Below are positions 49,847 through 53,613 of a stretch of DNA of 64,000 nucleotides, one piece after another (position 1 is the stretch's first letter; each line of letters starts with the position of its first letter). Source of the DNA: Crossiella cryophila (lineage in GTDB: Bacteria; Actinomycetota; Actinomycetes; Mycobacteriales; Pseudonocardiaceae); assembly GCF_014204915.1 (NCBI RefSeq), contig NZ_JACHMH010000001.1, forward strand, positions 1,736,001 to 1,800,000. The letters are read 5' to 3'. Under the pieces are notes generated by a model, which searched no databases, was not told the DNA's origin, and saw only the letters and a list, made by a program, of their open reading frames with translations. The translations under genes and the position numbers were made by a program.

Positions 49847-50218
49847 TCAGTCCCGGCGCCGGATCAGCCCGCCTCGCTTGCGCAGCAACTCCTCCAGCGC
49901 GGTCTGCGCGGCCTTGATCCGCGCCGTGCGCTGCTCCATGGACAGCCCGTCGGCTGGCAGCATCGGCTTGGGCAGCGGCTTCATCTGGAACCAGCGCTCG
50001 TCGTAGAACAGGTTGCCGACCTCGCGCCAGCTCTCCTTGAGGTCCGCCTCGGTCTCCTCGAGCTGCCGCTCGGCCTTCTCGTGCCGGGCCTTGGCCTGGC
50101 GGACCACCTCGGACAGCTCCTTGGCGCGTTCGGCGTCCACCTTCTGCATCCGGCGCACCGCCTCGTCCACCTGGCCGGTGATCGCCCGGTAGCGCTCGCT
50201 CGCGGACGGCTCGTTCAC
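49847..50218 (-). CDS. Coiled-coil protein of the FtsK operon
   Basis: A 123-residue, highly charged protein that I do not recognise. Residues about 8-65 are a long Glu/Lys/Arg-rich coiled coil (ERAKELSEVVRQAKARHEKAERQLEETEADL), followed by SWREVGNLFYDERWFQMKPLPKPMLPADGLS and a basic helix ending RKRGGLIRRRD. There is no signal peptide or membrane helix. Its GTG overlaps the FtsK stop (GTGA), so it is the last gene of that operon and probably a cytoplasmic partner of the ATPase. Confidence 0.75.
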   Translation of the reverse strand: MNEPSASERYRAITGQVDEAVRRMQKVDAERAKELSEVVRQAKARHEKAERQLEETEADLKESWREVGNLFYDERWFQMKPLPKPMLPADGLSMEQRTARIKAAQTALEELLRKRGGLIRRRD

Positions 50219-53010
50219 GGTTGGCCCTCCCCGCTGGCCTCTGCGGTGTCGAACGGGATGACGACCTCGGGCCTGGCGTGCTCGGCCCGGTCGAAGAACA
50301 GCCCGCGCCGGGGCCGCGGCGACCAGCTGATCAGCTGCCCGGCGGCCAGGCTGGACAGGTCCGGCCCGTGCACGTCCAGCGCCACCCAGGCGCCAAGGTC
50401 CTCGATGCCGCCGCCCAGGAATCCGCCCTTGAGCCGCTGCACGCTGCGCCACCAGCCAATGGTGTGGGTGGCCAGTTCGGGGCCGTGCTTGAGGATCTGC
50501 TTGAGACTGTCCACTCCGGACTGCCGGGTGCCCGGATCCTTCTGTTCCAGCAACGGGTAGGCCGCGTCGATGGCGTAGAGCACCAGGTAGTGCGGGCGGG
50601 CCGGTTCGTTGTTGCCGGCGCCGCTGGCCGCCCGCGCGCCCAGGTCGGCGGCCAGCGCGTCCAGCGCGGCACGCACCCCGTCGGTGTCGATCAGCTCGAC
50701 CTCGTTGCCGGAGTCCTTGAGCGCGCAGGTCAGCGTCTCGGCCTGGGGCCGGGCGTCCTCGGCCACGCAGACCAGGGTGAACCTGGCCTCGCCGGGCAGG
50801 TGCTGCCGGGACAGCGACAGCGTGGCCGCGGCCAGCACGCTGGTGGCATCGCGCAGCACCGAGCCGAAGGCGGCGATGTTGCGGCCGGGGGTGCGGGCCA
50901 GGGTCACCCCGGCCGCGCTGCCCGCCACGTCGATCACCTGTCCCAGCAACGCCACCGGCGGCCTGCCGCGCCGTGGTTCCAGCAGCCGGAAATCCTCCAC
51001 AGTGGACAGTGCGGGCACGTGGTCGCCGTCGAAGAGCCGGGGTTCGCCCAGGTGCGCCGGCCGGCGTTGCCACAGCTCGACCTGGAGCGCGTCGAAGGTG
51101 CCGCGGCTGGTGGCGTCCGGGATCCGGGCCACCTCGTTGCCGTGCCGCACGCCGGAATCGTGGTTGATCACCGCGTGCCGCCGGGGGATCTCGATCGCGG
51201 CCTGGTTGGTGTCCACCAGCACCCGGCGTGCCTTGGGCAGCGCGATCCGCACGATGAACTGCTCGAAGATGGCCGGCTTGCCCCAGAACGCCTCGATGCC
51301 GGAGACGTCCTGGCTGGAGAGCACCAGGTGGATGCCCTGCGAGCGCCCGCGCCTTGCCACGTCCTCCAGCAGTCCGGCCGCCTGGTTGGTCACCGCGTCG
51401 CGTTCGGCGAAGAGGAACTGGAACTCGTCGATGACCGCCACGATCCGCGGCCAGCGCCCCTCCGGGTCCTCGGTGCGCAGTTCCTCCAGCTTGGTGACCT
51501 CGTGCCGTTTGGCCGCCTCGGCCCGGCGGCGCATCTCATCGGCCAGGTACTTCAGCAGTGCCAGCCCGAACTCGCGGTCGGCGTTGACGTTCACCCCGAC
51601 CAGCCGGGCGTGCGGCAGCCAGCTCGGGTCCTTGCGGCCGGGGGTGAACTGGGCGAAGGAGACGCCCTCCTTGAAGTCGAGCACGTACAGCTCGAGTTCG
51701 TCGGGGGAGTAGCGGGCGGTGAGGCTGCCCAGCATGGCGTAGAGGAAGTTGGTCTTGCCGGAGCCGCTTGGCCCGCCGATCAGCGCGTGCGGCGAGGAAT
51801 CGCCAAGGTGCAGCAACACGTCCTGGCCGTCGCTGCGGCCGATCGGCGCGCTCACCCCGGTGGCCGAGTGCTCGGCCCAGCGGGTCTCGGGCAGCAGGTC
51901 GGCGAAGGTGCACACCCGGCTGCGCCGCTCCAGCAGCGCGTCCGCGATGGCCCCGCAGGCAACCGGCACCCGGTCCCTCGGCAGTGGATCGTCCAGGGTG
52001 ACGGTGGCGTGCTCGCCGGTCATGCTGGCGGTGACGGTGCCGTCCCGGTGCAGTTCCACCGTTTCCAGCGGGCTGTTCACCGACAGCCGCATGTCCACCA
52101 TGATCAGCTGGATGCCGCAGGCCAGTCCGTTGCGGGCGACCCGCTGCAACTGCTGGCGGAGCTGGTCGTCCAGGTCCTCCCGGTTGCCGAAGAGGATCGC
52201 GATCCGCCACGGTTCCGAACGTTTGCCGGTGGCCGTGGTCAGCGCGCGCAGCGAGGCGTGCCCGTCGACCAGGATCCGGGTGTGCACCCGGCGGATGTGC
52301 TCGGAGAACTCGGTGAGCAGGTCCTGCAACCGGCTCGGGTCGTGCACGGTGAGCAGCCCGGCGCGGGCCAGCGGGTACAGGCCGGGCAGCGAGCCGGTGA
52401 ACTGGCCGGTGTCCCACACGTGCACCTGCACCAGCCCCGGCTGGAAGTAGGACAGCGCGCGCAGCACCAGCGTTTCCACCAGTGCCTCGGCGTGCATCCG
52501 GGTGCTGTGGTCGGAGAGCACGTGCAGGTGGCCGTGGTCGAGCAACGGCACCGCGGCCGGGAACTCCTCGGCCAGCGAGGCGTCCTCGATCCGGGCCGAG
52601 CCGATCCGCCACAGCCCCGGCGCCGGGACGCTGCCGTCGTGCGTGCCCGGCAGGCCAAGCCAGTGTTCCCAGTGATCCCCTGCCGAGCCGGGCGCGTGCT
52701 CGCGGACCAGTTCGGCCAGGGTGGCCGGGCCGTTCCCGGTCCACTGCGCGAAAACCTGCTCGTGCTCGGCCAGCGCGTGTTCGGCCAGCGGGCGCAGCGC
52801 CGGGTCGGCGTACTGCCCGGCGAAGGCCGGATCCGCCTGCACCGCACGGATTCCCTGCTTGCGCAGGGTCAGCTCGAACTCGGCCCGGCGGTGCTGCGCC
52901 TCGGCCACGGTGTGCTCCTGCCTGGCCGCGCCCAGCGCCATCGCCACCGCGTCGTGGAACTCGCCGAAGACCTCGCCGATCCGCGCCCGCCGCTCGATTT
53001 TCTTGCTCAC
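50215..53010 (-). CDS. Soluble FtsK/SpoIIIE-type ATPase
   Basis: A 931-residue protein without membrane helices. Residues 1-90 are helical, and 130-360 form an N-terminal domain unlike FtsK alpha/beta domains. The FtsK motor core follows: Walker A GGPSGSGKT (412-420), LYVLDFKEGVSFAQF, Walker B IVAVIDEF (523-530) and HLVLSSQD (561-568). The last 240 residues look like a second, degenerate motor domain (TPGRNIAAFGSVLRDATSV in place of a P-loop). Proteins of this type pump DNA or act as secretion motors (EccC). Here there is no membrane anchor and no other type VII secretion component, so the substrate is open. It sits between two small helical-protein genes and a coiled-coil gene. Confidence 0.8.
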   Translation of the reverse strand: MSKKIERRARIGEVFGEFHDAVAMALGAARQEHTVAEAQHRRAEFELTLRKQGIRAVQADPAFAGQYADPALRPLAEHALAEHEQVFAQWTGNGPATLAELVREHAPGSAGDHWEHWLGLPGTHDGSVPAPGLWRIGSARIEDASLAEEFPAAVPLLDHGHLHVLSDHSTRMHAEALVETLVLRALSYFQPGLVQVHVWDTGQFTGSLPGLYPLARAGLLTVHDPSRLQDLLTEFSEHIRRVHTRILVDGHASLRALTTATGKRSEPWRIAILFGNREDLDDQLRQQLQRVARNGLACGIQLIMVDMRLSVNSPLETVELHRDGTVTASMTGEHATVTLDDPLPRDRVPVACGAIADALLERRSRVCTFADLLPETRWAEHSATGVSAPIGRSDGQDVLLHLGDSSPHALIGGPSGSGKTNFLYAMLGSLTARYSPDELELYVLDFKEGVSFAQFTPGRKDPSWLPHARLVGVNVNADREFGLALLKYLADEMRRRAEAAKRHEVTKLEELRTEDPEGRWPRIVAVIDEFQFLFAERDAVTNQAAGLLEDVARRGRSQGIHLVLSSQDVSGIEAFWGKPAIFEQFIVRIALPKARRVLVDTNQAAIEIPRRHAVINHDSGVRHGNEVARIPDATSRGTFDALQVELWQRRPAHLGEPRLFDGDHVPALSTVEDFRLLEPRRGRPPVALLGQVIDVAGSAAGVTLARTPGRNIAAFGSVLRDATSVLAAATLSLSRQHLPGEARFTLVCVAEDARPQAETLTCALKDSGNEVELIDTDGVRAALDALAADLGARAASGAGNNEPARPHYLVLYAIDAAYPLLEQKDPGTRQSGVDSLKQILKHGPELATHTIGWWRSVQRLKGGFLGGGIEDLGAWVALDVHGPDLSSLAAGQLISWSPRPRRGLFFDRAEHARPEVVIPFDTAEASGEGQP

Positions 53011-53040
53011 GCTGCACCGCCCAAGATCACGCCGCCAGTC

Positions 53041-53292
53041 TCACAGGGAGGTCATCAGGCCTTCCACCCGGTCCAGCGCCGCGGTGAGCAGTTCCACGCT
53101 GCGCTGGTGCTGGGTGCTGGCGCCGAGCAGTTCGGGCGGGGTCAACGACTCCGAGTGGTGCTTGCCGAGTCTGGCCAGCACGGCCAGGGACTCCCCGAGC
53201 AGCTCATCGGCCTCGGTCAGGCCCTGGTGCGCCTGGAGCAGTTGGTCCCGCACGGTGCCCAGTACGGCCAGCACCTCCGCGACAGAGGACAC
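53041..53292 (-). CDS. Small helical protein of the FtsK operon (83 aa)
   Basis: An 83-residue, Leu/Ala-rich protein predicted to be two helices (about 3-45 and 55-82) joined by a short turn at SLTPPEL. There is no signal peptide, no Trp-x-Gly motif and no cysteine. It starts at a GTG seven bases after the stop of the first gene and is followed 30 bp later by the FtsK gene. It is similar in size and shape to its upstream neighbour, so the two may form a pair. I do not recognise the family. Confidence 0.7.
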   Translation of the reverse strand: MSSVAEVLAVLGTVRDQLLQAHQGLTEADELLGESLAVLARLGKHHSESLTPPELLGASTQHQRSVELLTAALDRVEGLMTSL

Positions 53293-53298
53293 CGGCGC

Positions 53299-53559
53299 CT
53301 ACAGCCGGTTGGCGTAGCCCTCGGCGGTGCTGATCGCGCTTTGCACCTGACTCTGCGTCTCGCCGATGCTCGACACGGCCTGGGTGAGCAGGTTGGCGGC
53401 CTGTTCGGCGTCGGACTGGCTGCTGCCCTGGGTCACCTGGTGCAGCGCGGTCTGGGCTTCTTCGAGGGCTGTCACGGCCTGTTGGAGGGCGTTGACGCTC
53501 TCCCTCGCCTTCTCCGTGGCCTGTGAGATCCCGTGGCGTACCTGCTCCACACTTGCCAT
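53299..53559 (-). CDS. Small helical protein of the FtsK operon (86 aa)
   Basis: An 86-residue protein, first gene of the operon. It is almost entirely helical, with a Gln/Ser-rich turn (TQGSSQSDAEQ) in the middle, giving a helical hairpin of the size of ESAT-6-like proteins but without their WxG motif. The ATG at 53559 is preferred (MASVEQVRHGISQ); an upstream GTG would add 15 residues. An inverted repeat 29 bp upstream may be its operator. Function unknown. Confidence 0.72.
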   Translation of the reverse strand: MASVEQVRHGISQATEKARESVNALQQAVTALEEAQTALHQVTQGSSQSDAEQAANLLTQAVSSIGETQSQVQSAISTAEGYANRL

Positions 53560-53587: not shown

Positions 53588-53613
53588 AGCCGTGCCACGG
53601 ACATGGCACGGCT
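53588..53613. promoter_or_regulatory. 10-bp inverted repeat upstream of the FtsK operon
   Basis: AGCCGTGCCA (53588-53597) and TGGCACGGCT (53604-53613) are perfect inverted copies with a six-base spacer. The left half begins 29 bp before the first gene of the operon. It could be an operator or a leader hairpin. The rest of the gap 53614-53800 shows no gene. Confidence 0.6.

Follow-up and report, generated by a model that had tools for sequence, protein, structure and literature searches.

What a type VII-like protein motor minimally needs is an open question, and in canonical type VII secretion systems (T7SS) the ATPase sits inside a large membrane complex and is hard to study. A membrane-bound ATPase is a common component of the systems listed as T7SSa to T7SSj (PMC11217815), and the ATPase3 domain of the T7SS motor binds the C-terminal tail of EsxB (PMC6954902). 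In Helicobacter pylori, a WxG protein and an FtsK protein make up a minimal type VII set termed a 'WXG100 secretion system' (PMC4978471), and HP0062 is an 86-amino-acid (aa) hairpin with a W-R-D turn that forms an antiparallel homodimer (PMC3397514). CoCoNuT systems contain EssC-like ATPases without membrane domains that begin with a coiled coil and possess three ATPase domains, the central one alone being predicted to be active. Two WXG100 proteins, one without W-x-G, accompany this ATPase, secretion by a different mechanism is predicted for the module, FtsK-superfamily ATPases are stated to be hexameric, and the ATPase/WXG100 operon is reported to occur as a stand-alone unit in other genomes too (PMC11090510, citing Anantharaman 2012 for the last point). 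Here we describe a four-gene operon of Crossiella cryophila, a member of the Pseudonocardiaceae with a genome of 10.06 Mb in a single contig. The operon occupies 53559-49847 on the minus strand of the window, by which we mean the whole analysed stretch of 64,000 nucleotides (NZ_JACHMH010000001.1, positions 1,736,001 to 1,800,000). It encodes two small helical proteins (P1 and P2), a large FtsK/EccC-type motor (P3) and a predicted coiled-coil protein (P4). We give a probability of roughly one half to the reading that this operon is a T7SS-derived protein-handling machine, in which a hairpin pair would be docked by its C-termini and moved, most likely across the membrane.

The AlphaFold2 model of P3 (predicted local distance difference test score, pLDDT, 90) has an N-terminal helical hairpin followed by three RecA-like domains of the EccC/EssC type. 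The helices of the hairpin region are modelled at residues 2-52, 54-59, 61-68 and 73-105, and beyond them the model predicts a dead domain resembling the EccC DUF, then the single live FtsK ATPase, and finally a second dead domain, which resembles ATPase3 (Table 1). EccC is the top structural match of the model, with FtsK motors tying with EccC in Z. Transmembrane hydropathy is not reached by any of the four proteins, the maximum 19-residue Kyte-Doolittle values being 0.29 for P1, 1.16 for P2, 1.59 for P3 and 0.04 for P4, and no membrane-type helix is seen at the N-terminus of the P3 model. A preliminary description of this DNA, made from the sequence alone, had called P3 a soluble motor without a membrane helix, which both hydropathy and the model bear out, and had assigned it Walker A and Walker B motifs that are indeed present where it placed them (Table 1). 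It had also recognised a degenerate motor domain; the model shows two such domains rather than one, in addition to the N-terminal hairpin. Both Walker motifs are intact in 44 of 46 aligned P3 homologues, with those of L085 and L127 degenerate in both. These two loci (L085:7950-10463 in G403 and L127:8354-10621 in G753) hold an extra, Walker-degenerate motor paralogue followed by a gene with membrane-type segments, and judged by their sequences these paralogues are candidates for a pseudo-ATPase partner.

In regards to the small proteins, the AlphaFold2 model of P1 (pLDDT 93.3) consists of helices 4-43 and 49-85, which supports the helical-hairpin fold proposed for P1 in the preliminary description. 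Homology between P1 and P2 extends over their full length (hhalign 96.5%), and the P1 profile scores above 10 bits on 22 of 29 P2 sequences versus 1 of 1418 shuffled ones; by sequence comparison the two are a paralogous pair. The turn glycine of P1 is invariant. The C-terminal residue is leucine in all 30 aligned P1 sequences (24 from the family and 6 selected from beyond it) and all 29 aligned P2 sequences, preceded by arginine in 24 and 17 of these, respectively. A terminal leucine is not universal: L086 encodes three small proteins with Ile, Ser and Ile as last residues, the small protein of L126 has Asn there, and among nine W-x-D hairpins of distant relatives seven end in a residue other than leucine. 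The preliminary description had further held that unrelated small proteins in other genomes would speak against its view; they are related in the family loci examined.

It had also reported no WxG motif in either small protein, and both window proteins in fact lack tryptophan altogether. W-x-G occurs in 0 of 29 family P2 sequences, 10 of which carry P-W-[LV]-P at the turn position that W-x-G occupies in WXG100 proteins, and in 1 of 30 P1 sequences, outside the turn. There is no Pfam WXG100 match for P1 or P2, and a fold search with P1 gave no match at E ≤ 0.001. A PDB sequence search with P1 retrieved Thermomonospora curvata EsxA:EsxB (4lws_A, E 0.006) and ESAT-6 (E 0.1), both behind apolipophorin (E 0.002). 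Profile comparison of P1 gave 2% against the W-x-D hairpin set and 58% against a broader G-S set, values that are suggestive and not proof, and the link of P1 and P2 to WXG100 proteins is structural and contextual. No second P1 copy was found in the Crossiella genome, bar one weak partial match (E 0.009). A model in which P1 and P2 are joined by read-through was dropped because a short linker would be incompatible with an antiparallel dimer.

We explored how widely the operon is distributed in the Pseudonocardiaceae, a family that includes many antibiotic producers. The motor is present in 160 of 200 family genomes and 35 of 46 genera at E ≤ 1e-40, with one match in 155 genomes and two in five, and the identity among the matches listed is 49-98%. 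This breadth indicates, from sequence matching, that the four open reading frames (ORFs) are real genes and not chance ORFs, and such retention indicates that the operon does something of steady use. The P1 profile finds the same 160 genomes, some with two to five matches. The window motor shares 98% identity with its counterpart in Crossiella sp. S99.2; among the best 80 relatives are those labelled Saccharothrix, Saccharopolyspora, Lentzea, Kutzneria, Amycolatopsis, Prauserella, Actinokineospora and Pseudonocardia, which we take to belong to the same family, and also one Nocardia, one Rhodococcus and one labelled Actinomycetes. Gene order was compared in 35 family loci, namely the window and 34 others, each from a different one of the 35 positive genera, all picked for having the motor and themselves used to build the profiles. 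All 35 have P1 upstream and P4 downstream of the motor, and 34 also have P2 upstream. In L053 and L077 a longer stretch (1.1 and 0.7 kb) separates P2 from the called start of the motor, and P2 is missing from L082, which keeps P1, motor and P4. When 80 loci chosen by motor were examined, 74 had P1, P2 and P4, two were cut by a contig end and four (L211 and L234 from Pseudonocardia, L222 and L228 from Actinokineospora) had P1 and P4, with no room for P2. Since P2-less loci keep the other three genes, P1, motor and P4 form the core and P2 is a usual but dispensable partner.

Samples reaching beyond the family were also searched. A motor match was obtained in 7 of 396 genomes of a phylum sample, the Crossiella genome included (E ≤ 1e-25), and a class profile search returned 86 of 296 genomes (E ≤ 1e-30), many of these rows covering only the EccC-like core at about 370-600. 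In a class sample the P1 profile matched 18 of 197 genomes, again including Crossiella, and all 18 are motor-positive; in 16 of them P1 and the motor share a contig and lie no more than 2 kb apart, and in two P1 is on another contig. Apparently the operon has been kept by most Pseudonocardiaceae by descent.

A mechanism can be proposed from these features. P3 would presumably act as a hexamer in which each subunit has a single working ATPase domain flanked on either side by a dead RecA-like domain, the C-terminal of these two being a likely counterpart of EccC ATPase3, which binds the EsxB tail in T7SS. P1 and P2 would form a WXG100-like hairpin pair, and a P1 homodimer can probably work too, because P1 is found in every motor-bearing family genome sampled and P2 is sometimes lost. 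The conserved C-terminal leucine of P1 and P2, taken together with the ATPase3-like domain of P3, makes tail docking a natural prediction: the P1/P2 dimer would dock its leucine tail onto the C-terminal domain of P3, and docking would assemble or switch on the ATPase ring. By analogy, the ring would then move the pair, most likely across the membrane, via a partner encoded away from the locus. The small proteins are probably the cargo or the switch of the motor, and P4 may be an adaptor that joins the motor to the membrane or to the partner; the gene after the motor has membrane-type segments in many relatives. Among the three readings offered by the preliminary description, that of a minimal secretion relative is the best supported, because the top structural match is EccC and because there is a paralogous couple like EsxA/EsxB; a DNA pump and a defence module found no direct support. 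The soluble motor, which combines a single live ATPase domain with an ATPase3-like one, would together with its co-inherited hairpin pair also be small enough to reconstitute.

The strongest competing explanation is a purely cytosolic machine, in which a T7SS-type motor without a membrane part remodels, threads or assembles complexes and P1/P2 serve as a regulatory clamp or adaptor. An EccC-type ATPase and an EsxA/B-like pair would then have moved off the membrane into intracellular remodelling or assembly with the tail-docking switch retained, which we regard as a tentative possibility. Several observations favour it: the motor and both small proteins lack membrane helices, membrane-type hydropathy is found in the first gene after the motor in 0 of 35 family loci, and Hsp70, J-domain and GrpE genes lie beside the motor in some relatives. 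The latter are L086 (Pfam HSP70 1e-120, GrpE 3.6e-14, DnaJ under the cut-off) and L157, together with L044, where GrpE is just below the cut-off, and L137, L140 and L144, where Hsp70- or J-like genes were recognised by eye. However, the Hsp70 set is not part of the window operon, export machines are typified by a tail-binding domain of the kind that the P3 C-terminal domain resembles and by couples like EsxA/B, and the first forward gene behind the motor is of membrane type in 23 of 39 loci outside the family. This count, made on gene calls from a GC-frame (guanine-cytosine) script, with longest ORFs used where GC is ≤ 0.6, so that genes may be missed, combines 22 of 38 recounted loci with L157 and excludes L044 because its motor ends at the contig end. 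The 23 include L144, whose gene is J-domain-like and not coiled-coil, and leave out L137, whose membrane-type gene is the second after the motor. A comparison of P4 with the relatives' proteins at the same position gave no support for P4 being their homologue without a membrane helix; within the family, P4 has the invariant residues Y10, W64, W76 and P83 (21 aligned members). On balance we judge export via a partner, for which P4 would serve as adaptor, to be more likely than a role confined to the cytosol.

Further explanations were weighed against the export reading with the help of the genomic surroundings. The Crossiella chromosome carries several canonical ESX loci, with five full EccB genes and one fragment near 0.47, 5.38, 5.97, 6.91, 8.83 and 9.52 Mb, all of them with an EccC-like match no more than about 11 kb away. 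P3 could thus be imagined as an auxiliary loader that passes P1/P2 to the EccB/C/D channels of these systems, but no shared component or linkage is seen, and we consider this unlikely. The absence of EccB, EccD, EccE and mycosin in the preliminary description holds for the ten flanking window proteins, among which EsaA, EssA and EssB were not found either (Pfam, E ≤ 1e-5; two of the ten are without any match), but it does not extend to the chromosome, where the nearest EccB is at least 1.3 Mb from the operon. A defence or conflict module, as the preliminary description had also suggested, is harder still to reconcile with an operon present in 80% of the sampled family, usually as a single motor match (155 of 160 genomes). 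PADLOC gave no match at E ≤ 1e-5 among the ten neighbours and matched P3 over the FtsK core only, and nuclease, VWA, kinase/phosphatase and CoCoNuT genes are likewise absent from these neighbours. Least probable, by a small step, is an FtsK-like translocase for chromosome or plasmid DNA. The fold does not separate this from an EccC-type motor given the tie in Z, but no FtsK gamma domain is among the Pfam matches, the flanking domains follow the EccC order, and the motor keeps a strict partnership with a small helical protein.

The layout of the locus agrees with the gene sizes, gaps and overlap given in the preliminary description. Genes 1 and 2 are separated by 6 base pairs (bp) and genes 2 and 3 by 30 bp, while genes 3 and 4 overlap by 4 bp; the features are collected in Table 1.

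Table 1. Features of the four-gene operon and its upstream region, in window coordinates
Feature	Position	Strand	Remark
Inverted repeat upstream of gene 1	53588..53613	-	perfect, 10 bp, with 6-bp loop
Gene 1 (P1)	53299..53559	-	86-aa helical-hairpin protein, G-S turn, C-terminal Y-A-N-R-L
P1 residues 82-86 (YANRL)	53302..53316	-	conserved tail; candidate docking tail, putative function
Gene 2 (P2)	53041..53292	-	83-aa P1 paralogue, proline in turn, C-terminal Leu
Gene 3 (P3)	50215..53010	-	931-aa soluble FtsK/EccC-type motor
P3 residues 2-105	52696..53007	-	N-terminal helical hairpin (AlphaFold2 model)
P3 residues 134-365, predicted degenerate RecA-like domain, EccC DUF-like	51916..52611	-	
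P3 Walker A, residues 412-420	51751..51777	-	
P3 Walker B, residues 523-530 (IVAVIDEF)	51421..51444	-	
P3 residues 686-919, predicted degenerate RecA-like domain, EccC/EssC ATPase3-like	50254..50955	-	
Gene 4 (P4)	49847..50218	-	123 aa, coiled coil by sequence, without membrane helix

The inverted repeat reads AGCCGTGCCA-6-TGGCACGGCT and is identical in two further Crossiella loci (L161, L206), and it was not found in five loci inspected from other genera. It is unexplained, with an operator or a leader hairpin as candidates. The heptamer GGTACTA occurs upstream of P1 in 14 of 79 loci versus 0.7 in shuffles, although these loci are related and not independent.

Distant relatives of the motor show several other partner genes. 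L157, on the Rhodococcus pseudokoreensis plasmid NZ_CP070617, has the order Hsp70, J/TPR, GrpE, FtsK, 203-aa, 86-aa and 272-aa proteins. Its motor is 29% identical to P3 over 83% of the query, and its 86-aa protein has the G-S turn and C-terminal leucine of P1. Unlike the window operon it has its own Hsp70, J/TPR and GrpE genes, and the 203-aa coiled-coil protein encoded after its motor has a hydrophobic, membrane-type segment at the C-terminal end. The 272-aa protein is hairpin-like by eye at its N-terminus, carries HGNG and SCSTG motifs in its C-terminal part and has no Pfam match. A fusion of P2 to cargo was considered for this protein and for a longer gene at the P2 position in L084 and L125, and toxin delivery is not claimed because the P2 profile scores are weak (L125 E 0.03; no match in L157). 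In three small genomes from another class of the phylum (L153, L088, L089), JAB- and ThiF/E1-type genes precede a motor relative that is about 1150 aa long and is accompanied by a W-x-D hairpin and a coiled-coil gene; JAB and ThiF were Pfam-tested in L153 only, and an E2-like gene was recognised by eye. Distant motors adjoin W-x-D hairpins. Nine of these were aligned and seven have a Pfam WXG100 match at E ≤ 0.01, although the score displayed for one protein is below the curated cut-off. The best PDB matches of this set are HP0062 (3fx7, 8.7e-14; 2gts, 6.8e-13), followed by EsxB entries. Finally, a Caballeronia plasmid copy (L158) lies in a cluster of VWA, WXG100, CARF, phosphatase and kinase genes that resembles the TerY-P/CoCoNuT arrangement.

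The closest described systems are the soluble EssC-like ATPase and WXG100 pair of CoCoNuT/TerY-P modules and the Helicobacter HP0062/HP0066 cluster. The former, overlooked in the preliminary description, share with the window three ATPase domains of which the central one is live, no membrane domains and two small proteins. Their N-terminal coiled coil, without FHA domain or membrane helices, is matched by P3 helices 2-52 and 73-105, although the N-terminal helical stretch spans about 100 residues in P3 and can exceed 200 in CoCoNuT ATPases. One CoCoNuT/TerY-P hairpin has W-x-G, whereas the window pair, for which a hairpin is modelled in P1, lacks such a turn. The window also differs in that the ten neighbours lack a nuclease fusion and genes for an HU-mimic, VWA protein, kinase or phosphatase, in its chromosomal loci across most of a family and in its additional 123-aa coiled-coil gene. 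The preliminary description had held that an ATPase from a described family with a known role would count against it; such a relative has been described (PMC11090510), with a role that is predicted only. The Helicobacter cluster likewise pairs an 86-aa hairpin protein with an FtsK/SpoIIIE gene, is widely conserved within its species and lists a DnaK homologue, as do some relatives of the window operon. HP0062 has a W-R-D turn and forms a homodimer, whereas the turn of P1 is G-S and P1 is usually accompanied by a paralogue, and HP0062 matches the W-x-D set yet is absent from the matches of the P1 profile. With T7SSa to T7SSj the window shares an EccC/EssC-type motor, small helical hairpins and, in the P3 model, the EccC DUF-, FtsK- and ATPase3-like domains. 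It differs from these systems in that its ATPase is soluble rather than membrane-bound and is one RecA-like domain short of EccC, its small proteins lack a W-x-G turn, and the locus encodes no other membrane component. No description of this family-wide operon was found in the literature searched. The operon is not a new kind of system, because soluble EssC-like ATPase/WXG100 and HP0062/FtsK sets have already been described; it is a stand-alone, family-wide, W-x-G-less variant of that basic type.

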